From Pocillopora verrucosa (taxonomy: Eukaryota; Cnidaria; Anthozoa; Scleractinia; Pocilloporidae), in assembly GCF_036669915.1 (NCBI RefSeq), contig NC_089316.1:6426271-6490270 (forward strand): a DNA stretch of 64,000 nt, in the 5' to 3' direction. The position numbers and the translations under genes are program-made. Positions 18,388 through 64,000 of the stretch are shown here, piece by piece (the first letter of the stretch is position 1; every line of letters starts with the position of its first letter). The notes under the pieces are model-generated. The model worked only from the letters and a program-made list of their open reading frames with translations. It had not been told where the DNA came from and searched no databases.

Positions 18388-21300
18388 TCATGTAGCCCTG
18401 TAATTGGGTCGCTTAAAATCCACCCTAGGCCGTGAAACCACTCGAGGCTGTGCAACAACTCCAGGCTGCACAATCACTTCAGGCTGTGCAACCACTCCAA
18501 GCTGTCAAATGAACAATGTTAAAATATTTTCAGACCTAGAACACAATTGACCTCAGACTTCTTGACAGCATATAAGGCAAGATTTTCTCCATTTTTTCAC
18601 GTGCATGGGCAAAAAAACTCTGTGTTACCCATATTGAACTAGACACTAGGCCTTTGGATTTTTTGCTCTGCCACTGAGCTATAGAGAGCTCACTCGGGTG
18701 AAATGGGCCATCAATAGCTTCATATCTGACAAACTCGAAGTTTTACTTTATTCATGCATCAAGCTAAAAAAATTTACTATACTTGTTGTATATATCACCA
18801 GCTTCAGTTGCACCATACCAGCATTTTAACCCTGTACACCAAAACATGAGTATGCATTTACTCCATTCTATCTTTGTAGAATTTATTTAACGATCGAGAG
18901 CTTCTTTAGTTGGTGACCATTTTCCTTATTCTTTTTACCTTAATGTGTGATTCAGGGGGTTATATTGTAAGGAGAGATTAGATGCAAGTCACTCTTAGAA
19001 TTTCAAATATTAATTTCCTGATATCTGAAAAGAATGCCTAATAAACACACTATAGCCTGAACAACAACACTAAGAAGACGAGGACAGAGAATATGTTAAT
19101 CTACGTGTTACGCATCTAAACGACGGCATTCATTCCTCTTTTCCCCTTTAGAACCTTTCTGAAGTATACTCTCTTGCAGTCAATGTAATCATGGATACCT
19201 TTAGACCAAAATGGAATTTCCATTGTAAACACTGCACTGCACGGAATAATAATCAATTTGTTTTCTGACAAACAAACTAAACAAGAAAAAAACATTTGAT
19301 ACACCGCCTGGAACTTTGTTTGTTCAAACTTGGATTCATTTAATTTGTATCAGTAGAAAATGTTTTATTTCTAGTTACCTGCAGGAGGACGTACGCAGGT
19401 TGCTGGCCTGTTGCTGGGTATCCCTGTGGCACCACACCATCTTCAGTCTGCATTAAAACCCCACCAGGCTGTGTCCTTGGGTTCATGTACCGAGGCTGTA
19501 CATACACCTCTTGCTGGCTGGTCCTTGTCTTAATAGTCAGAATAATTAAACATCAGAGTGATTAAATATTCATAGTCTAAAACTCATTACAAAAACGCAA
19601 CTTGCCATTTCACCAAATAAGGCTAATAGAATGAACAAAACCATTTACTAGGTAGGTTTATAACTGAGCTACTGTGAACAGGAAAACAGCGCGTTTCTAG
19701 TGAGAGGGGAGTTGACTGTACTACATTCAAAACTAAAAGTTCCAATGGTTCACAATGAATACCAATTATTTCAAATGTCACTAGCCCAGCATAAACTGTT
19801 CATCTTGATCATTATTTACACTATACAAGTGTTCACGAGAGAGATATTTGTTTAGTGAAAGTAATGTTTGTTCCACGATGCAAACAAAAAACAAAGAACA
19901 AAGCTAGACTGGACAACAGGACACATGATTTTGTGGATATTATATAAAAAATCATGTTTCTTCCTCTGTTACAGTTAATATATGCCCTTCATCTTGAATT
20001 CAAGTTTAAACGAAGGCTTTTATCGTATTGACCAAAAGGATTTGACTGATTGGGGAATATCAGTCGGGCTAGATATCCTAGGATATTCCCCAGTTTTAGC
20101 CAGGGCTTATTTGATCACGTGTTGTATTTAGAACAATTGCGCACGGGCGAAAATATTTGATGGATTACAAAATTGAATAGTTTTCAGTTTTAGCCCTACA
20201 TATCCAGTTATGTGCCACTTTTTGTGAAACGAACTGTAAGTATGCAAAAATATTTGATGCAATATATATATAAAAAATGTATTGGCAACAAATGATTTAA
20301 AGATAGCTTTAAACATTAACAACTGAACTGCGGTGGTAATTACTTACTGTGTTCCCAACTGCTACTGAGTTACAACACACTGCCTTGCAACAATAGATGG
20401 ATGACGCAAGGGCCAAGACCAACTCAACCAAGGACAAAATAAGGAGACAAGAGCCAAAACCAGCCAAGTTTTCCGCTGTAGCTCTACTAAGGCCATACCT
20501 CCCATAGCAATCATAGTCCTCGTTGGTATCATAACCGTAATCGTTGTAGTTGTTACAGTGTGTCTTCACTTCAACGTAGACTAAAAGAGTAATGCTATAG
20601 CAGATGGCCATTTGTCCTGAGAGGATACACCCTATAATGGAGAAACCCATAAAACATCCAATCTGTCGATAAAAAGACACCACACAATGGAATTAGTGGT
20701 GGGCACACACTGTAGCCACTTGAACAACAAACACTAGCATTTTAGGCTATGTAAATCGTTGTTGGATAACTTTTGGGAGGTTAACCATTTTATGCTCAGT
20801 GAATCTTTGATGATGTACTTTCATTCTAGCGTAATATATTGATGCATATTTTCTTTTAAGCGATTCAGTTTTAATTTTTGGCTCATTAATCAGTTACATG
20901 TAATCAAGGCTCTTTCATTATAATAAGGTAGTGTGTATTGAGATAGGGAAGTTATCCAAAAAACGTTTCCTTAAAATTCCTAGTAACTCACCAAACACCT
21001 GTCTGGGTAGAAATCATCTCTTGCTCCGACATATCCCAAAATTCCAGTGATAAAAACCTACAATTTACACAAGCAGAAAGATCTTTTAAATAATTCATTT
21101 CTCATTGGATTAAGAACACATTAAGTAATCTTCAAGTCCACGTGATAAAAGTTTTTACATTTTGCAGGCCTTAAATATACAATTCACATCAAAAAAAACT
21201 CAGAAGGCTCCCCAATCTGAAGTGCAGGTGGAGTTCATGAAGTTCACTAAATATAATTTTCGCGATCCCAACTTAGAAACTTTTTGTTTATTTATCTACC

Positions 21301-26848: not shown

Positions 26849-29800
26849 TCATGTTGCCCGGTAATTGGGTCGCTTAAACTCCACCCTAGGCTGTGAAACC
26901 ACTCGAGGCTGTGCAACAACTCCAGGCTGTAAAATCACTTCAGGCTGTGCAACCACTCCAAGCTGTCAAATGAGCAATGTTAAAATATTTTCAGACCTAG
27001 AACACAATTGACCTCAGACTTATAGGGCAAGATTTTCTCCGTTTTTTCACGTGCATGGGGCAAAAAACCTCTGAGTTACCCATATTGAACTAGACACTAG
27101 GCCTTTGGATTTTTTGCTCTGCCACTGAGCTATAGAGAGCTCACTCGGGTGAAATGGGCGATCAATAGCTTCATATCTAACAAACTCGAAGTTTTTTTTT
27201 ATTCGTGCATCAAGCTAAAAAAATTTACCATACTTATTGTATATATCACCAGCTTCAGTTGCACCATACCAGCATTTTAACCCTGTACACCAAAACATGA
27301 GTATGCATTTACTCCATTCTATCTTTGTAGAATTTATTTAACGATCGAGAGCTTCTTTAGTTGGTGACCATTTTCCTCATTCTTTTTACCTTAATGTGCG
27401 ATTCAAGGGGTTATATTGTAAGGGGAGATTAGATGCAAGTCACTCTTAGAATTTCAAATATTAATTTCCTGATATCTGAAAAAAATGCCTGATAAACACA
27501 CTATAGCCTGAACAACAACACTAAGAAGACGAGGACAGAGAATATGTTAATCTACGTGTTACACATCTAAATGACACCATTCATTCCTGTTTTCCCCTTT
27601 TAAACCTTTCTGAAGTATACTCTCTTGCAATCAATGTAGTCATGGATAACTTTAGACCAAAATGGAATTTCCATTGTAAACACCTCACTGCACGGAATAA
27701 TAATTCATTTGCTTCCTGACAAACAAACTAAACAAGAAAAAAACATTGATACACCGCCTGGAACTTTGTTTGTTCAAACTTGGATTCATTTAATTTGTAT
27801 CAGTAGAAAATGTTTTATTTCTAGTTACCTGCAGGAGGACGTACGCAGGTTGCTGGCCTGTTGCTGGGTATCCCTGTGCCACCACACCATCTTCAGTCTG
27901 CATTAAAACCCCACCAGGCTGTGTCCTTGGGTTCATGTACCGAGGCTGTACATACACCTCTTGCTGGCTGGTCCTTGTCTTAATAGTCAAAGTAAATAAA
28001 CAGTAGGGTGATTGGATATTTATAGTCTAAAACTCATTAAAAAACGCAACTTGCCATTTCACCAAATAAGGTTGATAGAATGAACAAAGCCATTTACTAG
28101 GTAGGTTTACAACTAAGCTACTGTGGACAGGAAAACAGCGTGTGTCTAGTTAGAGGGAAGTTGACTGTACTACATTCAAAACTAAAAGTCCCAATGGTTC
28201 ACGATGAATACTAATTATTTCAAATGTCACTAGCCCAGCATAAACTGTTCATCATGATCATTATTAACACTATACAAGTGTTCACTAGAGAGATAGTTGT
28301 CTTGTGAACGTAATGTTTGTTCCACGATGCAAACAAAGAACAAAGAACAAAGTTAGACTGGACAACAGGACACATGATTTTAAACTTGCAATAAGTTAAC
28401 AACAGCTTCCATCGGACACTAAAAAATATGCACCGATATTTGTCCGTGGATATTATATAAAAAATCATGTTTCTTCCTCTGTTACAGTTAATATATGCCC
28501 TTAATCTTGAATTCAAGTTTAAACGAAGGCTTTTATCGTATTGACCAAAAGGATTTGACTGATTGGGGAATATCAGTCGGGCTAGATATCCTAGGATATT
28601 CCCCAGTTTTAGCCGGGGCTTATTTGATCACATGTTGTATTTAGAACAATTGCGCGCGGGCGAAAATATTTGATGGATTACAACATTGAATAGTTTTCAG
28701 TTTTAGCCCTAAATATCCAGTTATGTGCCCCTTTTTGTGAAACGAACTGTAAGTATGCAAAAATATTTGATGCAATATATATATAAAAAGTGTATTGGCA
28801 ACAAATGATTTAAAGATAGCTTTAAACATTAACAACTGAACTGCGGTGGTAATTACTTACTGTGTTCCCAACTGCTACTGAGTTACAACACACTGCCTTG
28901 CAACAATAGATGGATGACGCAAGGGCCAAGACCAACTCAATCAAGGACAAAATAAGGAGACAAGAGCCAAAACCAGCCAAGTTTTCCGCAGTAGCTCTAC
29001 GAAGGCCATACCTCCCATAGCAATCATAGTCCTCGTTGGTATCATAACCGTAATCGTTGTAGTTGTTACAGTGTGTCCTCACTTCAGCGTAGACTAAAAG
29101 AGTAATGCTATAGCAGATGGCCATTTGTCCTGAGAGGACACACCCCATAATGGAGAAACCCATAAAACATCCAATCTGTCGATAAAAAGACACCACACAA
29201 TGGAATTAGTGGTGGGCACACACTGTAGCCACTTGAACAACAAACACTAGCATTTTAGGCTATGTAAATCGTTGTTGGATAACTTTTGGGAGGTAAACCA
29301 TTTTATGCTCAGTGAATCTTTAACGATGTACTTTCATTCTAGCGTAATATATTGATGCATATTTTCTTTTAAACGATTCGGTTTTAATTTTTGGCTCATT
29401 AATCAGTTACATGTAATCAAGGCTCTTTTATTATAATAAGGTAGTGTGTATTGAGATAGGGAAGTTATCCAAAAAACGTTTCCTTAAAATTCCTAGTAAC
29501 TCACCAAACACCTGTCTGGGTAGAAATCATCTCTTGCTCCGACGTATCCCAAAATTCCAGTGATAAAAACCTACAATTCACACAAGCAGAAAGATCTTTT
29601 AAATAATTCATTTCTCATTGTGGATTAAGAACACATTAAGTACTCTTCAAGTCCACGTAATAAACGTTTTTACGTTTTGCAGGCCTTAAATATACAATTC
29701 ACATCAAAAAAAACTCAGAAAGCTCCCCAATCTGAAGTGCAGATGGAGTTCATGAAGTTCACTAAATATAATTTTCGCGATCCCAACTTAGAAACTTTTT

Positions 29801-33777: not shown

Positions 33778-36700
33778 CTAAACGGTCACCCCAGTCAGTG
33801 AAACTACCCCAGGCAGTGTAACCACTCCAGGCTGTGCAACCATCCCAGGTTGTGTAACCACTCCTGGCTGTGTAACCATTCCAGGCTGTGCAACCACCCC
33901 AGGCTGTGCAACCATCCCAGGCTGTACAACCATCCCAGGCTGTGCAACCACTCCAGGCTGTGCAACCACTGCAGGCTGTCAAATAAACAATGCCAAAATA
34001 TTTTTAGACCTAGAACGTTATTGACTTCAGACTTCTTGACAGCATATTAGGCAAGATTTTCTCCAATTTTTTCACATGCATGGGGCAAAAATCTCTGAGT
34101 TATCTGTATTGAACTAGACACCAGGCCTTTGGATTTTGTGCTCTGCCACTGAGCTACAGAGAGCTCACTCAGGTGAACTGGGCCATTAGTAGGTTCATAT
34201 CTAACAAATTCAGATTTTTTCTTTATTCACCCATCAAGCTCAAAAAATTACCATACAGAATGTATGTGTCAGTACCTATTAATAGTCTTTACACCATAAC
34301 ACGACTATGCATTTACTCCATACTGTCCTTAATATATAGTGTTTCCTAAGGCACCTGATCAGGAGAATTTGTTTAACAATCGAGAGCTTCTTCAGTTTGT
34401 TACCATTTCCCTTATTCCTTTTACCTTAATGTGTGATTCAGGGGGTTATATTGTAATGAGAAATTAGATGCTGATCACTCACTTTTATGCATCTAAATAA
34501 CAGCATTCATTCCTCTTTTCCCCTATTTAAACCTATTAAAGTATACTCTCTTGCAGTTAATGTATTCTTGGATAACTTTAGACCAAATTGAATTTCCATT
34601 GTGAACACTGCACCGCATGGAATACTAATTAATTTGTTTTCTAACAAACAAACTAAACCAAAAAAAAAAACATTTGATCACTCCAAGTTTATAGTAAACT
34701 GCCTGGAACTTTGCATGTCCAAACGTTGATATATTTACTTTGTATCAGTACATAATTATTTATATCTAATTACCTGCTGGAGGACATACACAGGTTGCTG
34801 GCTTGTTGCTGGGTAACCCTGTGGCACCACACCACCTTCAGTCTGCATTAAAACCACACCAGGCTGTGCCCTCTGCTGAGGCTGTACAAAAGTCATTTGC
34901 TGGTTGGTTGAGATAGAGAGTTTCATAAGAATAACTAAGCTGCAGCCAAAGGCTGAATTAAATAATTATTTACAATATAAAATTAGTACAATTAAAACTA
35001 GGGCTATTTACAAAGGGTCTCTATATAGCTAAAGTGCTCTGTATAATTATTGGCTACAAGCACTACAGTTTACAAAACATAGCTATTTACTCATTGGCAC
35101 AAGCAAACAATTTGCTGGTCGGTCCTTGTCTTTGTAGTCAAAATAATTAAACATCAGCCAAGGGTCCAGTTGTTCAAAGAGCGTATAACACTATCCAATG
35201 GATAAATCGCGATCCAGCTGATAGGAATTAACCCTTTAACTCCCATTAGTGACCAACACAGAATTTCTCCTCACAATATCAATACAATATCAACCAGATA
35301 AGCGATGAGAATAAAGAAAAATATCAATTTGGGGATAATTACTTGATCCAATAATTAATTCTCTGAGCTAGCATTGTAAGAATTGTATGGTTGACAGTAA
35401 GGAGAATGAAACATTTGATCTGGGAGTTAAAAGGTTAATAGAACATAATGCGCTATCCAGCGGATAGGGAGTTATCCAGTGAATAGTGTTATCCACCCTT
35501 CAAACATCTGGGGCCTGATAGATTAAATATTTAAAGTCTAATAATTCATCAAAATTGCTAACTGTCATTTCACCAAATAAGGTTAATAGAATGCACAAAA
35601 CCATTCACTTGGTAAGTTTACAACAGAGCTACTGTGGACAGGAAAAATGAGTGTGTCTGTTAGAGGGGAGATGACTGTACTACATTCAAACCCTAAAAAT
35701 TCCATTAGTTCACAATGAATAATAATTATTTTAAATGTCCATAACTCAGTATAAATTGTTCATTATGATCATTATTAATACTATACAAGTGGGATTGTGT
35801 TCAATGCAGAGATATTTGTTCCATGATGCTAACAATTTTCTCAGAACAAAGTTAGACTGGGAAACAGGACACAAGATTTTAAAATTGCAATGAATAAACA
35901 ATAGCTGCCATCGGGCACTAAAATGTGCACGGATATTTGTCCGTGGACATTAATATATCTGTTCCGAGATACGAACTGTCTTCTGAGATGCGAACAGCCT
36001 TCCGAGAGGGTTATGATGAACAAGAGAACAGATAATGTCCAAGGACAAATATAAGGGTATTTTTTTGGCGTGTATATCATCCTTCAACATACTTTTGCAA
36101 ATTGCGCGGGGAAAGTGTTTGTGAACAACTTAATTTTTGCTGGTTTAAGTTCCATTTCAGTATTCTCTGGTCCCACTTGAGCAACAACAAAAAAGTATGT
36201 TTCTTCTTTTGTAAAAGTATCTATATGCTCTTTTATCTTCAATTTAAGTTCAAATGAAGGCTTTTATCATATTGACCATAAGGATTTAACTGATTGGGGA
36301 ATATCAGTTGGGCTATACATCCTTGGATATTTCCCACTTTTAGCCAGGGCATATTTGATCACATGATGAATTTAGAACAATTTCGCGCGAGCAAAAATAT
36401 TTGATGGATGATAACACTGAATAGTTTTCGGTTTTAGCCCCACATGTCCAGTTATGTGCCCCTTTTTTTGTGAAACTAACCGTAAGTATTAAAAAATATT
36501 TGATGCAATATTTATAAAAAAATTAAAAAAAAAAGATATTGGCAACAAATGATTTCAAGATAGCTTTAAACATTAACAACCGAATTGTTGGTGGTAATTA
36601 CTTACTGTGTTCCCAACTCTTCCTGAGTTACAACACACTGCCTTGCAACAATAGATGGATGACGCAATGGCCACGACCAACTCAACCAAGGACAAAATAA

Positions 36701-41332: not shown

Positions 41333-41559
41333 GGCTGTGATCAAACTGGCGACAAATCGAAGATTAGATCAGACGCCGAGATAGTCAAAGCTTCAAAATC
41401 TGTTCCCTGGCAACCCGAAGGCATTTGACTGTTGTCAGTTTCCGGTGGTTAGAAATGTGACACTTCCCTGGCTGGGATGGGGAATTTGAACCGGAAGTAT
41501 TGAGTCTTTCCAGCGGAGTGCACGTTCTATATTTTAATACGGAGTTATTCAAAGGTGCA

Positions 41560-43861
41560 CAGTTCGGGCCATAACCATTTCTGGATATCGGTTTCGAGCT
41601 TTGTGATTGGGTGAGATCAAAACCAAAACAAAGCAAATTTGGCCGAGAGGTGCTGGAAACAAGAAGAAGCTGATTTTTTTTTTTTGGTGGCGGCCATGTT
41701 GTAATGCGGTAGTAAGCTGAAAAAAAATTCGCTAATAAGGACTGGACGTAAGATACCATTAAAAATATTCGTTTATTTCAAACATTCAACATGCATGTCC
41801 TAGACATTCTCGCATTCTTTCTAGCACAAATTCTTTGTAACGCTGTGGTCCTTCCACCAAGAGCGTCACAGGAATAAAAGCTCCTCCGCCAGCCTGTTTG
41901 TATCTGGAGAACTTCAGGGTAGAGCTTGGCCTCGATGTTACTGTCCGTTCTCCGTTGATTTCCCTATTTTGGGTTACAAGAAAACCAATTAAATGAGGTT
42001 GAACCAAATAACGCGCACTGATAACAATTGGAACGAGTGAGGTGTGAGATCGCGGAATCAGGACAATTTCATTTCTCTCCAGTATAGGTCGAGGAAAGAC
42101 AATATCTTGCTTCTCTCCGATTTTAAATAGACATTATCAATTTCAGTCCATCAAGCCTTTACGAAAAAGTAACAGTAAAGCAAGAAAACAGTAACTTACC
42201 TTTCAATTCCTGGTTATTTTGCCACATCGAAGCAAAGCATGCAGCTGTATGTTTAGAAAGTGCTGAACCGTGCCGATCTGCTGCCCTTTGACATCTCCTA
42301 AAGTGTATGTCTTTCTCTGCGATCTGCTGAAAATCTGGACTTCTCGTAAAGCCTCTGGAATGCGTTCCATTTCTCGTGGAAGAAGACAAGCCAGTGCATG
42401 CGAGTCATACGTGTTGTCGTCTTCACTTTGAATAACAAGCGGTGTTCCACGTGGAGCTTTGATCTTGAAATTATGATACCTGGAAAATAAACGCCAATAA
42501 ATACATGAGTGGGATGAAATAAAATCAAGTAGTCACAATCTATATTAAGACGAATACACATGATCGAATTCAATGCAAGAGAATCATACAAGGTATTTTG
42601 CGCGCTATTGATCGATTCGCGGGAGAATCTAGGTCTCAGAACACTACAAATTCGGTCCTACAGCTTTTAGTCAGCAATAATATGTCCTTTACAATTACCC
42701 TTTGATTTGAACACCCTGTATAGAAAGTTTGTTTAGGTAATCACTGCAAAATGTGAAAGCACGAGCGGTGTTTCTAAACGAGTTTCACAATTACAAACAA
42801 GTCCCTTGTGGTTTTAGACGAAAATTTCACTCTCATCAGTTCGTGTGGTTAACCTCCAACCTTTCTTTCCGGAATGCTGTAATAGAGACACTTCGGCAAG
42901 GCTTTCCACCAATGTGATTTCTTTATTTTCATCTTCATGCCGCTCTTATCGCACATTTCCCGGATACGATACCTGAAGATGTGAGAGCTCAGTGAACGAA
43001 TACCTTTTTGTTTTATGTTTGCCCGAAGGAGAACTTACTCGCTGGATAATCACATTTACGTGTTAGATTCGTGATTTCCTGAAATTATCTTTTAGTGTGC
43101 ATTCGCCTTGGCTGAATGAATCTCTCTGATGTCAAGATCGACATTGATTTGAAATTTCATCCAGAGCTCCGATTTAAAATATTCTTTGTTTATAGCACTG
43201 ACCCAGGCCCGTGGCAGATTTGTGCCACAAAGACGACAAAGTGTCTCGAGATACTGAATGTGTTCATCCATGCTGTTGGCTTGATCTGTAATTCACAATG
43301 TAGGCTTACAAAGGTCCGATAAATAATTGTCCTTTTACTTTAAATTGGCCGGCCACAACGTATGGTTAAAATTTATCGTTTACACGATACTCCGATGGAT
43401 CTTAACAAAGGAATCCGTCTGGTAGTTTGCACACTAACAGACTTTCAACATTTGTGCACTCGAGCAAAAACCTCGTGCACTCGATTGGAATTTTGACAAA
43501 TCGGAAGCAAATTTATTCTAGTTTTTTAAAAGATTTTTTTTAGGAATCAAAAAAAATGTTGCATACCTGAAAACCTCAACTAAATAGAGGTTATTCCTCG
43601 ATCGAGCCCTTCGCAAACATGGACCTCCACCCGAATTTTCATCTGAATTTTTCCTTCACGTCATCGCGATCACCATCAGTTCTTTGCTTGTTGTGTGTAA
43701 TTGCTTGTCTTCTGTAATTTTGCAAGGTTTCATGGGATATGGGTAGGGAACTAAGTCGCTAGGGCTCGAATAAAGTAATGATTGAGTTTCCTCGATGTCC
43801 CACTACGACATCCATGTTGGTGACGTCATCAAGTATCCAGAAATGGTTATGGCCCGGACTG
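41560..43861 (-). mobile_element. 2.3-kb TIR DNA transposon with RAG1-N-like exon
   Basis: The ends form a 28-bp inverted repeat starting CAGTYCGGGCCATAACC (41560-41587 and 43834-43861, one mismatch). It is flanked by a 5-bp duplication, GTGCA at 41555-41559 and GTACA at 43862-43866. Sister copies show the empty site 'aaggtgcagagttaattc' (for example near 23277). Inside, on the - strand, are decayed exon-like pieces with splice borders: 43285 down to a stop near 43099, 42861-42972, 42200-42479, and 41786-41963 ending in a stop. Frames do not all join, so the element is probably dead. It lies just upstream of MS4A copy C. A 5-bp target duplication is typical of Transib/RAG-type transposases, but no DDE catalytic core was recognised. 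Confidence 0.75.
43099..43285 (-). pseudogene. Exon resembling RAG1 N-terminal zinc region (N-RAG-TP-like)
   Basis: After a 'ttacag' acceptor the - strand reads QANSMDEHIQYLETLCRLCG, then a basic/aromatic spacer, then WMKFQINVDLDIREIH. The pattern C-x2-C, then F-x-I-(N/D)-V-x2-D-x3-IH, matches the zinc-binding stretch near the N-terminal third of vertebrate RAG1 and the N-RAG-TP transposon proteins described from molluscs. In those families IH is followed by a second Cys pair. Here the next residues are SAKANAH, with Asn and His where I would expect Cys, then a stop. I read it as an eroded or incomplete copy. Resemblance is by eye only. Confidence 0.4.
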
Positions 43862-45063
43862 GTACAGAGTTAATTCACTTTTGCAAGCGAATGGCTCACA
43901 AGAAAAGGTCTACAAGGTCTAGGTTTTTAAAGCTCAAATAGTGAATGAAAAGAAAGTTGCGGTCGCTGATCTTTAAGAAAAAACTGATCATTTAATCCAG
44001 CAGTCGGGTAGAGTATTTGAGTACAGTTTTGGCCCACAGGTAGGATGGGGGAAGGGAAGAACTTTCACAAAGATATGTTTTTTTTTGCCATACCACGGGC
44101 TGTTGTTTAAATGATAAAAAAAGGGGCTGTTCAGCTTCCTATCACAATTTTCCTGTCTTAAACTTAAATAAATATTCTTAACGTGAATATTACGGGGGAG
44201 TCTTAAACTTGAGTAAGTATTCTTAACGTCAATTTTACGGGGAAGTAATTTAACCTGTCAACGTTGAACTGTTACGATTCTCTGAACCAAACTTACAGCC
44301 TCTCATAAATATTATTCTGATCCTGATCACTCTGATTTTATTTTTGAAGACTTGTTCCTAGAGGGCTCTAGCATGCGGAAATATTAGTAAGAGGGTAATG
44401 CTATATCGTTCTGTTGGGTTCGTTTGTGGTGTATCGTAAACGTGCAGATTATTAGCTGCTATATCTCTACTTAGTAAGAGATAGTAGATGACGTCATAAC
44501 ATGAGAAAAGGTCCAAAAAGTGGCACACGAGGCGCAGCTACATTGTGATGTCATCTGTCTACCCATATTTACCAGGAGCTCATTAAAGGGCTCCTGATTT
44601 GTTATATATAAGAAAGAAGCAAAAAAACTGTTAAAAGTCACATCATCTATGAATGAGCCAATCAAAATGCAGCAGTGATTCAGCTTATTAGATAAACATA
44701 CACATCCTGGAGGCACAGGTTTACCTTAGTTGGGAAAGAGATGGGTAGGGAGGGAAAAGGGGGAAAGAATCTCTTGCTTCTAACCGGGCTTCAATATCCG
44801 TGACTTCTCGTATCCTTGACATTTCCCCCGCACCCCTTCTTCAACCCTCGTTCAGTTCGCACTTTTCACCCTCTCCTCTCTTATCTTATTGTCCTCTTTA
44901 ACCACTCCTCTCCTATGGTTCCTATTCCTTTCCCCTTCCACTACAAGAGTTTACGAACACAAAACTTCTAAAGCATGCCCTAATTACACTACAAAGGTCT
45001 TCAGATGTAACTTCTGATTCATGTAGTGAATGTATGGATTCATGTAGCCCAGTAATTGGGTCG

Positions 45064-50998: not shown

Positions 50999-53900
50999 TT
51001 AACCATTTGGATTGGCATCCTCAGATGAGAAAGCTGGTGGTGGTACATTGCCTGACTGTTGAAATGAATATGGTGCTGGCATGTCCTCGTCTGTTACTGC
51101 TACAGGAATCTACGGAAATATTAAGCAAGACAATCGATTCTCAGAGATTCTGTTTGGAGAGTTTGCTAAGATCAAGGCTAAAGTGAACAAACAGGCCCCT
51201 TCACAACAACACTTATTTAAAAAAACATCGTAGTGTTCTCCACAAATTTCTTATGGTACTGACACACAGAATCTGTTTAACAATAAAGAGCCACTTTAGT
51301 TGACCATCATTTCACTTTTTCTCATTTCTGTTTGATCAAGGAGCCAAACTGTGAAGAGAAACTAGATTCTGGTTAGTCCTTAGGGCTGAAGGGTTAAATT
51401 AACGTATTCCAGCATAATTACCTGGACTTGCAGAGCTTGATACTGCACTTGGGGGGGAACATCTGAATAGGGTAAAGTCACTGCTCCAGCTGCGTTGGAT
51501 CCTGAGGGAACAGGCCAGTAAGTGGGTTGCTGAAATGCCACCCCAGGCTGTGCAACCACCCCAGGTTGTGCAATCCCCCCAGGTTGTGACACCACCCTGG
51601 GCTGTGCAACCACCCCAGACTGTGCGACCACCCCAGGCTGTGCAACCACCCCAGGCGTTGTAACCACCCCAGGCTGTGCAACCACTCCGGGCTGTGTAAC
51701 CACCCCTGGCTGTGCCACCACCACTGGCTGTGCCACCACCCCTGGCTGTGCCACCACCCCTGGTTGTGCCAATAGCCCTGGCTGTGCCACTACTCCCCCT
51801 GGTTGTGCAACCACCCCAGGCTGTACAACAACACCTGGCTGTGCAACCGCCCCAGGCTGTGCCACCACTCCTGGCTGTCCTACCATCCCCTGCTGAGCCA
51901 CCACCCCCGGCTGTACCACCAGCCTTGGCTGTGCCACCACCCCAGGCTGTGCAACCACTCCTGGTTGTGCAACTACCCCAGGCTGTGCAAACACTCTAGG
52001 CTGTGCAACCACTCCAGGTTGTGCAGCCGCATCAGGTTGTGCAACCACTCCAGGCTGTGCAACCACTCCAGGCTGTCAAATGAATAATGTTGAAATATTT
52101 TAGACCTAGAACATTGATAGCATCTAGGGGAAGACTTTCTACAAGTTTTCATACACATGTGGCAAAAAACTCTGAGTCACCCATGTTGAAATAGACACTA
52201 GACCTTTGGACTTTGTCCTCTGCCATTAAGTTACAAAGAGCTCACTCAGGCGAATTGGGCCAGTAATAGCTTCATATCTAACAAACTCAAATTTGTCTTT
52301 ATTTATGCATCAAGCTAAAAAATTCACCATACTGAATGTATAATTGTCAGTAGCGTTAGTTTCACCATGCAAGCATTTTATCCCTTTTCACCATAACATG
52401 AGTATGCATATAGTCCATATTGTCCTTACATAATGTTTCCCAAGGTACCTGACAGGGAGAATTTGTTTAACAATCGAGAGCTTCTTCTTTAGTTGGTGAT
52501 CATTTCCTTTATTCTTTTTACCTTAATGTTTGATCCAGGGGTTATATTGTTGGGAGAAATTAGATGCAAGTCACTCTTAGAATTTCAAATATCAAATTCC
52601 TAACATCTGAAATGCCCAAAAAAACACGATAGTAAGAACAATACTAAGACAGACCAAGAGAAAGAATAAGTAACTATGTGTTATGCATCTAAATTACAGC
52701 ATTCATTCCTCTTTTAAACCTTTCCAAAGTATACAGTCTTACAATCAATGTATTTATGGATAATTTTAGACCAAACTGAATTTCGATAGTAAACACTGCA
52801 CTGCATGGAATAATGACTAATTTCTTTTTCTGAAAAAAAAAAAAAACTAAACAAGAAAAAAAATTTGACTATTCCGAGTTTAAAGTACTCTGCCTAGAAC
52901 CTTGTTTTTTCCAAACTTGGATTCGTGTAATTTGTATCAGTATATAATTATTTATATCTAGTTACCTGCTGGAGGAAATACAAAGGTTGCTGGCCTGTTG
53001 CTGGGTACCCACCAGCATCGGTCTGCATAAAAACCCCACCCGGCTGTACCCCAGGGTACATGTATTGGGGCTGTACATACACCACTTGCTGGTTGGTCCA
53101 TGTCTTAATAGTCAAAATAGTTAAAAATCAGATAAATTAAATGTTTACAGTCTAAAATTTATTAAAAATGCTAGCTGTCATTTCACCAGATAAAGTCAAT
53201 GGAATGCACAAAACCAACCAAAGCCTGTCCACTGTGGACAGGAAAAAATAGTGTCTGTTAAAGGGGAGTTGACTGTATTAACATTCATAACTAAAAATTC
53301 CAATAGTCCGTAATATATACTAATTATTATTAATTTTCAATAACCCAGTATTAATAATTTACATTACGAGTATCTGATTGGCCGAAAACAGGTGCATTCT
53401 GGTGTAACACAAGTGCAAAGTTGTAACACAAGTGCAAATAACAATTAGGGCATTTGTGCTGCCAGTAAATATATGTCTGTCTCCAGTCTCTTTGATGTTT
53501 CTCTCATGTACATTATGAACAAGTAATAACATTATTTTTCTTGCAATTTTTCAAAGAATACAACTTGCACCAATTGCCCTACAGGCTTGTCCAACTTAGT
53601 TGTTTATGAAAATTCTACGTGTGCTTATTAACACCAAATTGCATTGAAAATCATGTTATTACCTATACAAATTGTTCATCATGATCATTATTACCACTAT
53701 ATACGTGGCATTGTGTTCACTAAAGAGATATTTGTCCAGTGAACATAATGTTTGTTCCATGATGCAAACAATTTTCTAAGAACTAATTTTCTATAACGCT
53801 AGACTGGGCAACTGGACACAAGATTTATAAATTGCAATAAATTAACAATAGCTGGCATCGGACACTAACATATGCACGAATATTTGTCCAGGGACATTAT

Positions 53901-62264: not shown

Positions 62265-64000
62265 TTATTTTTTGGTCTTCTGAGTAGTTTTCCTCTTTTT
62301 GGGTCCATTACAAGGTTCTATTTCTCCAAAAGCTCCAGCTGCATAAGTTACACCCTCGCCACGAATCCTTAGATCTTCATTATGCTGTTTAGCCTGTCTC
62401 CTGGCAACTCTGTATTTCTTGTACTGATCTTGCACTCTCTTCTCTGCTTGTTTAATTCTCTCTGAATCCCTTCTCCTAGCTTCCATTTTGGCAGTATCAC
62501 TCACAGTGAGCCCAACCTTCTCCATGATAGCATGTTTCGCGGAGGCACCACCACTGAAATGTAAGGCAGCTGACAAAGCAGCCAGCTGCACTCTCCTTCT
62601 GCCATGCCACTTGTGTTTGGGACATTTGTTCCATACCAGGGAGTTGATGGACTCATTAGCATTCTGGGTATAGCCAGGCAAGCACCTTGCAAGAAGGGCA
62701 GAATCTGTGAGCCTGTCATAAATCTTGCAAAGATGTTCCTCAAACACCTTGTCAAGATGGTGTGGCTTGTTAGGGCAAGGGAGCCCTTTCTTGTATTTAC
62801 ACCATGAATTTGGTGGACAAAACTGGTGCCTTTCTTTATTGGGTAGCTTCAAGCAGTGGAACAATCCAGCCAGAATCTCAGTTTTCATAGTCTGCACAGC
62901 TTGGTCCCTCTCTTCAGTGGTTGTAATTTCTCTTTTTACATTGTCACGAATTGCCTTGCCATAATTCTTTTTCAGTTTTTCTATAGCAGCCTTTGTCAGT
63001 CTTCCATTTCTTCCATGCATTGGTTTTCCATCACTCAATTTCACTGAGGATTTTTGAAATTCATACAGTGCTTTTCCAAGTCGCTTTTGAACGTGTCCAA
63101 TGCAGTCTAATTTCATGACCCGGTCACAGCCTGCAGTTCCAGCCAGGTGATCCTCTTCCCACTTCTTAAAATCTTCTGAAGCTTTCCAGGTAATGTACTC
63201 TTGATCATTGTTTTGTAGATTTTCATAATGGTGACAAGTGTCACAGGCACCATAAATGCTCCGGTATCCGGTTAGATCGCTCCATGGTTAGATCGCTCCA
63301 AGTCAGATCGCTCCATACCGAAGTCAGATCGCTCCACTCGAAAGTTAGTTCGCTCCATCAAATAAGTTATTTCGCTCCATACATAAGTTACTTCGCTCCA
63401 TGTAGAAACCTAATACACTAACTTACTTCTGATCTACTTCTGATGATGTGTATTGCGTCTTGCGATCGGTCGAACTACCGATGTTGGAACAAGTGTTTCA
63501 GTGTGTAATGAACGTAGAAAACTAATAACCTAACTTACTTCTGATCTTTGTAGTTTATAGTTGATGATGTTGCTTGCGATCAAGTTGCTGAAATATAAAG
63601 TGATCGACGATTCGTTCACTTGAACCCACCAAAGCGAATTACCAATGATGAAATAAGTGTTTCAGTGTGTAATAAATGATGAAATTTCCCTTATCCTTCT
63701 GTCTTTTATCAACCTTCCACGTTAGTTTTCTTCATGGAGCGAAGTAACTTATGTATGGAGCGAAGTAACTTATTTGATGGAGCGAACTAACTTTCGAGTG
63801 GAGCGATCTGACTTCGGTATGGAGCGATCTGACTTGGAGCGATCTAACCATGGAGCGATCTAACCGTAAACCTAAATGCTCCATATAGAATTATATGCTT
63901 TTGAGTCCCCATCAGAAATCATCCATGTGTACCTGATAAAGCCCTGCTCACTTCTTCCCCATATCCTTTTGGCACATTCCATCTCCATACTTGAGCTGGA
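62265..64000 (-). pseudogene. Mutator-like transposase gene, split by a foldback insertion, 5' part off window
   Basis: On the - strand the frame runs from the window edge to 63883, is interrupted by a 610-bp element, and resumes at 63262 to a stop at 62265. Upstream text includes YTWMISDGDSKAYNSIW, whose Asp-rich DGDSK is a catalytic-Asp motif of this cnidarian/arthropod Mutator-like domain family. After the insertion come GACDTCHHYEN, MKLDCIGHVQKRLGKAL, and CLPGYTQNANESINSLVW, the conserved NxNES glutamate motif. A basic C-terminus (PKKRKTTQKTKK) may be a nuclear localisation signal. Apart from the insertion I find no stop or frameshift, so the interruption looks recent. It may be a once-active MULE or an intact ORF broken by its own superfamily. 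Confidence 0.8.
63263..63872. mobile_element. 610-bp foldback (MULE-type) element inside the transposase gene
   Basis: The arms at 63263-63402 and 63733-63872 are nearly perfect 140-bp inverted repeats. Each arm is seven tandem subrepeats ending in CGCTCCA, such as GGTTAGATCGCTCCA, AGTCAGATCGCTCCA and AGTTACTTCGCTCCA. The outer tips read GGTATCCGG and, reversed, GGTTTACGG. Flanks are a direct repeat TAAATGCTCC (63253-63262 and 63873-63882), i.e. a 9-10 bp target duplication as made by Mutator-type transposases. The 330-bp centre is an imperfect tandem pair, each unit with 'aacttacttctgatc' and 'aagtgtttcagtgtgtaat'. No ORF of note. Confidence 0.9.

Follow-up and report, generated by a model that had tools for sequence, protein, structure and literature searches.

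The element at positions 41560–43861 of the window, meaning the whole 64,000-nucleotide stretch of Pocillopora verrucosa DNA analysed here, is probably a copy of a non-autonomous transposon family, which would have been internally deleted from a longer transposon bearing an N-RAG domain and would be moved in trans. In the mechanism that we propose, a trans-supplied transposase would recognise ends of the form CAGT(T/C)CGGGCC, and insertion would proceed by cut-and-paste with a 5-bp stagger. The 2.3-kb family would have arisen by internal deletion of the longer transposon, whose gene would have encoded a complete RAG1 N-terminal (N-RAG/Chapa) zinc domain first and then a large protein that was probably the transposase. 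What would have survived the deletion are the terminal inverted repeats (TIRs), the 5′ end of the gene, and a 3′ portion that includes a HIRAN-like stretch; the frames still present would be relics and would not make up a working gene.

The copy is bordered by the following features.

41555–41559, no strand: left target duplication, GTGCA (empty sites read GGTGCAGAGTT)
41560–41587, plus strand: left TIR, CAGTTCGGGCCATAACCATTTCTGGATA (TIR match; both TIRs in the genome loci counted below)
43834–43861, minus strand: right TIR, beginning CAGTCCGG in the inward reading (TIR match; both TIRs in the same genome loci)
43862–43866, no strand: right target duplication, GTACA, one base off (empty-site comparison)

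A TIR transposon of about 2.3 kb had been proposed in the first-pass annotation and is confirmed: the 28-bp TIRs are complementary at 27 of 28 positions, and no third TIR match occurs in the window at up to 3 mismatches, where the chance expectation is 0. The 5-bp target duplication claimed with it likewise stands, the flanks GTGCA and GTACA being alike at four of five positions and most of the listed genome copies having an exact one. Empty sites were also found as described, in that three paralogous places read AAAGGTGCAGAGTT without an insert, the site being occupied here as GTGCA, element, GTACA. The three empty paralogues are mutually 89.7–94.1% identical over 1.0–2.1 kb and are thus not three independent witnesses; the alignment of a fourth paralogue, at ~60.9 kb, ends 22 bases before the site, so that it is silent on emptiness. 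A 6-bp duplication (GGTGCA/GGTACA) was considered and rejected: it fits the empty site, but the TIRs become unequal, and exact duplications of 6, 7, 8 or 9 bp are present in none of the 26 listed copies introduced below.

A search of the host genome (353 Mb, 52 contigs) with the element gave at least 58 matches, some of which are pieces of one copy, and the copy statistics rest on the 30 loci listed (L004–L033) from these matches. Both TIRs are present in 26 of the 30 loci; because L020 and L021 represent a single site found on two contigs, these 26 listed copies stand for 25 sites. Twenty-two of the 26 are 2266–2337 bases long (full range, 2243–2570), and pairwise identity averages 96.8%, with a minimum of 93.5%. 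The 5-bp duplication is exact in 19 of the 26 and alike at four of five positions in two, the window copy among these two; the remaining five (L006, L016, L018, L027, and L031) have no clear duplication, which we count against the explanation given above. CAGT is found at both ends in 22 of the 26 listed copies, with one variant end each in L011, L014, L016, and L025, and CA at both ends in 24; CAC is found at an end in none. At the fifth position, 24 of the 26 have T at one end and C at the other. The 19 exact targets exhibit a weak TTNAA-like preference, with T at position 2 in 13 and A at position 4 in 14. A TIR scan of viral contigs gave two exact 17-base matches, judged to be due to chance, as neither continues to match the element past 17–19 bases.

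The internal exon, read on the minus strand, and its surroundings comprise the following features.

43095–43271, minus strand: stub of the RAG1 N-terminal (N-RAG/Chapa) zinc domain, 59 codons, with ATG at 43271 and stop at 43092–43094 (PF12560, register, score control, and genome matches)
43110, minus strand: approximate breakpoint of homology to the longer relative L054, inside the domain (blastn, bases 1–752 against L054:1275–2026, 91%)
43038, minus strand: candidate 5′ splice site, CGA/GTAAGT (consensus scoring; other sites score similarly)
43566 and 42199 (donors), 42972 and 42479 (acceptors), minus strand: other candidate splice sites (consensus scoring)

The exon consists of LETLCRLCG...FQINVDLDIREIH, the frame from 43271 reading MDEHIQYLETLCRLCGTNLPRAWVSAINKEYFKSELWMKFQINVDLDIREIHSAKANAH and then a stop. 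It had been taken for the RAG1 N-terminal zinc region, and the homology stands, with the limit that the window copy has only the first half of the domain. In a Pfam search, the sole family listed was RAG1_imp_bd (PF12560; E 0.0093), at a score below the Pfam cutoff in the window copy (16 bits against 23.3). The CRLC of the stub aligns at profile positions 102–105, the same place as the CRIC of RAG1; the RAG1 stretch used for this comparison of register scores 260.9 bits with RAG1_imp_bd. When two RAG1 segments were sought in order, the stub frame scored 68, no other of the 563 window frames scored above 29, and none of 20000 shuffles reached 68. These results, together with the complete domain of L054, support homology of the window exon to the RAG1 N-terminal zinc region, as judged from sequence comparison. 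Joining the stub exon to the following frames worsened RAG1_imp_bd to E 0.32; consensus splice scoring gave no good acceptor for the last exon. The PDB matches of the window exon, led by cyclin-dependent kinases (E ~0.5), were taken as chance. The frame RYRIREMC...KALPKCLYY, considered as the missing WxxHxxxxC part, was rejected, as 1623 of 20000 shuffles score at least as high and the continuation in L054 differs.

Searched at the protein level with the stub exon, the host genome yielded 54 matches at E up to 1, one of which, L054 on contig C2, has a 380-aa open frame that contains the domain in full. L054 begins at the same TIR as the window family and has the left TIR and the 5′ end in common with it, the two being 91% identical over the 752 bases counted inwards from the right end of the window element. 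The frame of L054 is unbroken through the domain, continuing REIHPSSICTGCKRFLYRV...HVWRSHTEDNCPC, and holds all of the motifs (CRxCG, FxIxVxxDxxxIHPxxxCxxC, and WxxHxxxxC). It matches RAG1_imp_bd above the Pfam cutoff (E 4.6e-08; 33.4 bits; residues 7–162), and the three L054 exons joined give E 2.7e-05. In comparison with solved structures, the best three matches of its 161-aa start are RAG1 chains (E 0.01, 0.047, and 0.048), followed by TRIM58 at 0.93, and a phmmer search of the PDB with the 374-aa exon matched three RAG1 chains only (E 0.079 to 0.9), by the N-terminal part alone. The zf-AD family is below its cutoff in L054 (0.0036), as it is in RAG1 itself (0.0035).

The first exon of L054 is followed by frames of 114 and 362 aa, in which no family was recognised with confidence. 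More broadly, no transposase was recognised by Pfam in the scanned frames of the window element or of L054; the DDE core for which the first-pass annotation proposed to look was found neither in the 16 frames in or overlapping the window element nor in the L054 frames scanned. The 362-aa frame (L054:3815–4900) has CPVC, HVPSNH, MDGLPY, and HLEMNM motifs. It ends at an in-frame stop, which counts against the proposed explanation, and its sole match in the assembly is itself, which is few for an active parent. Its PDB matches, led by short toxins (E 1.5–2), included no transposase and were taken as chance, and a DUF6589 match in L054 (E 0.057) vanished with the joined protein. The readable C2 locus is 7.8 kb, with N from about base 1790 of L055 covering the right end of the L054 element, and the HIRAN-like and C-terminal parts are absent from these readable 7.8 kb. 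We infer that the L054 locus represents a whole transposon, the protein of which would be the transposase acting in trans.

Two further loci, L057 (contig C7) and L059 (contig C6), are deletion forms in which more of the domain is kept. Both retain the parental frame as far as CKRFLYRVR, about 42 bases beyond the point reached in the 2.3-kb family, and then pass into 2.3-kb-type sequence, as expected of forms that would be older deletions. Both TIRs are present in L059 (166–5127), with flanks TCCAC/TCCGC, four of five alike by eye, and the left TIR alone was found in L057. In the 2.3-kb family, the stub frame ends at a common stop (after KANAH, KANAQ, or KANAR) in 20 of the 26 listed copies, L031 with an additional earlier stop among them, and is broken earlier in six (L014, L020, L021, L025, L026, and L029). 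Since L057 and L059 keep the parental frame further before the 2.3-kb-type sequence, a deletion junction is the best reading of the stop after KANAH, and point mutations as the cause of the broken exon were dropped in its favour. The window family is, on this reading of the junctions, a deletion derivative in which the parental sequence stops inside the domain. An internal tandem array, with SVFGLRS repeated in one frame, lies between the N-RAG and HIRAN-like parts of L059 (L059:3901–4300).

The 3′ part of the window element contains the following features.

42206–42478, minus strand: HIRAN-like stretch, tentative (Pfam below cutoff; segment score; genome matches)
41789–42133, minus strand: C-terminal open stretch (no Pfam match; 78% protein identity to the L057 copy; no codon-position bias)
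41772–41777, minus strand: AATAAA right after the last stop codon (sequence reading)

The stretch 42206–42478 is tentatively regarded as HIRAN-like. Two of its segments resemble, in order, MVALQRDPNNPYDKNAIKV and NGNQVGHLKKELAGALAYIM of the HIRAN domain of HLTF, from which the stretch differs in being a relic of putative exon arrangement that scores below the Pfam cutoff (PF08797; E 0.051; 13.8 bits against 24.7; E 0.19 when trimmed); joined to the C-terminal part, it gave no HIRAN match in Pfam. Sought in order, the two HLTF segments scored 47 in this frame and at most 33 in other frames, and none of 20000 shuffles reached 47, the shuffle maximum being 46. For three HLTF segments taken singly, 10, 647, and 1028 of 20000 shuffles attained the score. 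The stretch has 65 matches at E up to 1 in its own genome and is present in the deletion forms; it would come from the same parent as the N-RAG part. Protein-based scans confirmed no relatives of the HIRAN-like and C-terminal parts in the viral contigs, and none of the HIRAN-like part in a genome contig collection. The PDB matches of the C-terminal part, led by Cas12f (E 1.2), were taken as chance.

As for the superfamily, our best guess, held with about as much doubt as belief, is the Chapaev/Transib side (CMCT clade). A Chapaev/CMCT transposase carries a Chapa domain, and C(2)C and H(3–4)H between the second D and the last E. CPVC, followed by HVPSNH, can be made out by eye in the third frame of L054, in which no acidic triad is assignable. 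The CMCT clade is characterised by 5′-CA..TG-3′ ends and duplications of 2–5 bp (PMC12730594), in line with which CA stands at both ends and the duplication is an exact 5 bp in most of the listed copies.

It is unlikely that the family is instead moved by a hAT5 transposase, with the N-RAG gene as a passenger from another transposon or from the host. CAG...CTG ends are common among hAT elements, which speaks for such movement. So do the 5-bp duplications, by which hAT5 is defined (PMC12730594), and the hAT5 expression reported in a study of Hydra (PMC12220107). However, the scanned frames of the window element and L054 contain no hAT domain or hAT transposase, and L054, with the same TIR start, has N-RAG as its first domain, so that the domain seems native to the longer element.

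Membership of the family in the Transib/RAGL group, which the first-pass annotation had proposed from the 5-bp duplication, is more doubtful still. The duplication itself agrees with this group, as does the N-terminal zinc region that the element has in common with RAGL, TransibSU, and ProtoRAG; N-terminal zinc motifs are conserved in most of the RAG1L proteins newly found in one study, which also reports RAG1L–RAG2L pairs from three cnidarians (PMC7204232). Yet the CAC termini of Transib/RAGL are invariant and vital for cleavage (PMC7204232), whereas the listed copies end in CAGT or a variant of it and never in CAC, and the scanned frames include no RAG1-type core and no RAG2-like frame. With hAT5 also making 5-bp duplications, the length of the duplication does not serve as a sign of Transib/RAG. 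IS481EU (parabasalids; TNT ends) was dropped.

Returning to the preferred reading, a non-autonomous family moved in trans, the differences among its copies are distributed over the three codon positions as 21, 21, and 22 in the N-RAG stub and 27, 23, and 28 in the HIRAN-like stretch; the C-terminal part (61, 56, and 34) is like a noncoding control stretch (49, 49, and 24). As there is no excess at the third codon position, the copies look like passengers moved in trans, and we conclude from these patterns that the 2.3-kb family probably supplies no protein for its own movement. Between the C7 and C2 loci, the exon differs by 5, 2, and 10, small counts as throughout this test, which hint at a past protein constraint on the exon in the longer form. 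It is very improbable that a functional short accessory protein of N-RAG/HIRAN type, such as a repressor or end-binding helper, is encoded by the 2.3-kb elements: the 66-aa and 109-aa frames are open in many copies, and splice-like sites and AATAAA are present, but the codon-position bias is absent, only the first half of the zinc domain is left, and the frame lengths are not especially unusual (of 500 random sequences, the longest frame is at least 119 aa in 127, the second at least 115 aa in 26, and the third at least 109 aa in 10).

N-RAG-TP and Chapaev have served to argue that the N-terminal part of RAG1 derives from transposons different from, or additional to, the Transib core, and the RAG1-type relic fits earlier reports of the RAG1 front end travelling on transposons. 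Chapaev makes duplications of 4 bp and Chapaev3 of 3 bp. The element resembles both in having a RAG1 N-terminal-type zinc domain in a transposon protein (PMC4411706) and ends within the 5′-CA..TG-3′, 2–5 bp range of the CMCT clade (PMC12730594), and differs from them in its 5-bp duplication, CAGT start, and the lack of a recognised Chapaev core. The same RAG1 region, under the name Chapa, has been reported on Chapaev elements from the starlet sea anemone, Chapaev being reported from lancelet as well, and the 2015 paper in question names Chapaev, Chapaev3, and TransibSU as homes of the domain and no other known elements (PMC4411706); an N-RAG-type domain on cnidarian transposons is thus not new. 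N-RAG-TP of Aplysia, compared here by description only, is likewise a transposon with RAG1 N-terminal-like sequence, of which it is composed entirely (PMC8355894).

What may be new is the combination of CAGT ends, 5-bp duplications, an N-RAG domain, a large protein, and a tentative HIRAN-like relic. Among the papers listed on N-RAG-TP, Chapa, Chapaev, and HIRAN, titles and the starts of abstracts describe no such combination; Repbase reports and most subscription papers lie outside this scope, and we make no claim that it is unpublished. It is possible, although we rather doubt it, that L054 represents an undescribed lineage, neither Transib nor known Chapaev, with CAGT ends, 5-bp duplications, and a transposase starting with a complete RAG1 N-terminal zinc domain; a transposase of such a lineage would imply that, before its acquisition by RAG1, the domain had passed between several types of transposase. 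The window copy itself moves in an ordinary way, and its moderate interest lies in where the RAG1 N-terminal domain travels. The family adds a further transposon setting for the RAG1 zinc domain, and its many similar deletion copies mark the ends exactly; the end sequence so defined can be used to look for the transposase and to examine to which core the zinc domain was first joined.

The host locus, positions 1–60900 of the window, is a tandem array of CD20/MS4A-like gene copies with segment identities of 68–97%. The MS4A label given to it earlier is fair, in that two of the 10 window frames scanned match CD20 (PF04103), and weak, in that both matches (E 3.7e-05 and 7.2e-05) are below the Pfam cutoff; the frame adjoining the insertion matches CD20 at E 0.068 to 1.8 in the Pfam scan, in which DUF308 scores higher. 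Related 18-bp minisatellites (AGGCTGTGCAACCACTCC-like), of ~4 to 30 units, occur in several copies of the array (33787–33979, 51538–52076, 26888–26971, and 18427–18505). Beyond the array, a Mutator-like transposase frame (62268–63287, minus strand) matches PF20700 above the cutoff (E 7.1e-09), and is adjoined by two 21-bp tandem arrays (63270–63401 and 63734–63865), the units of which are mutually reverse complementary.
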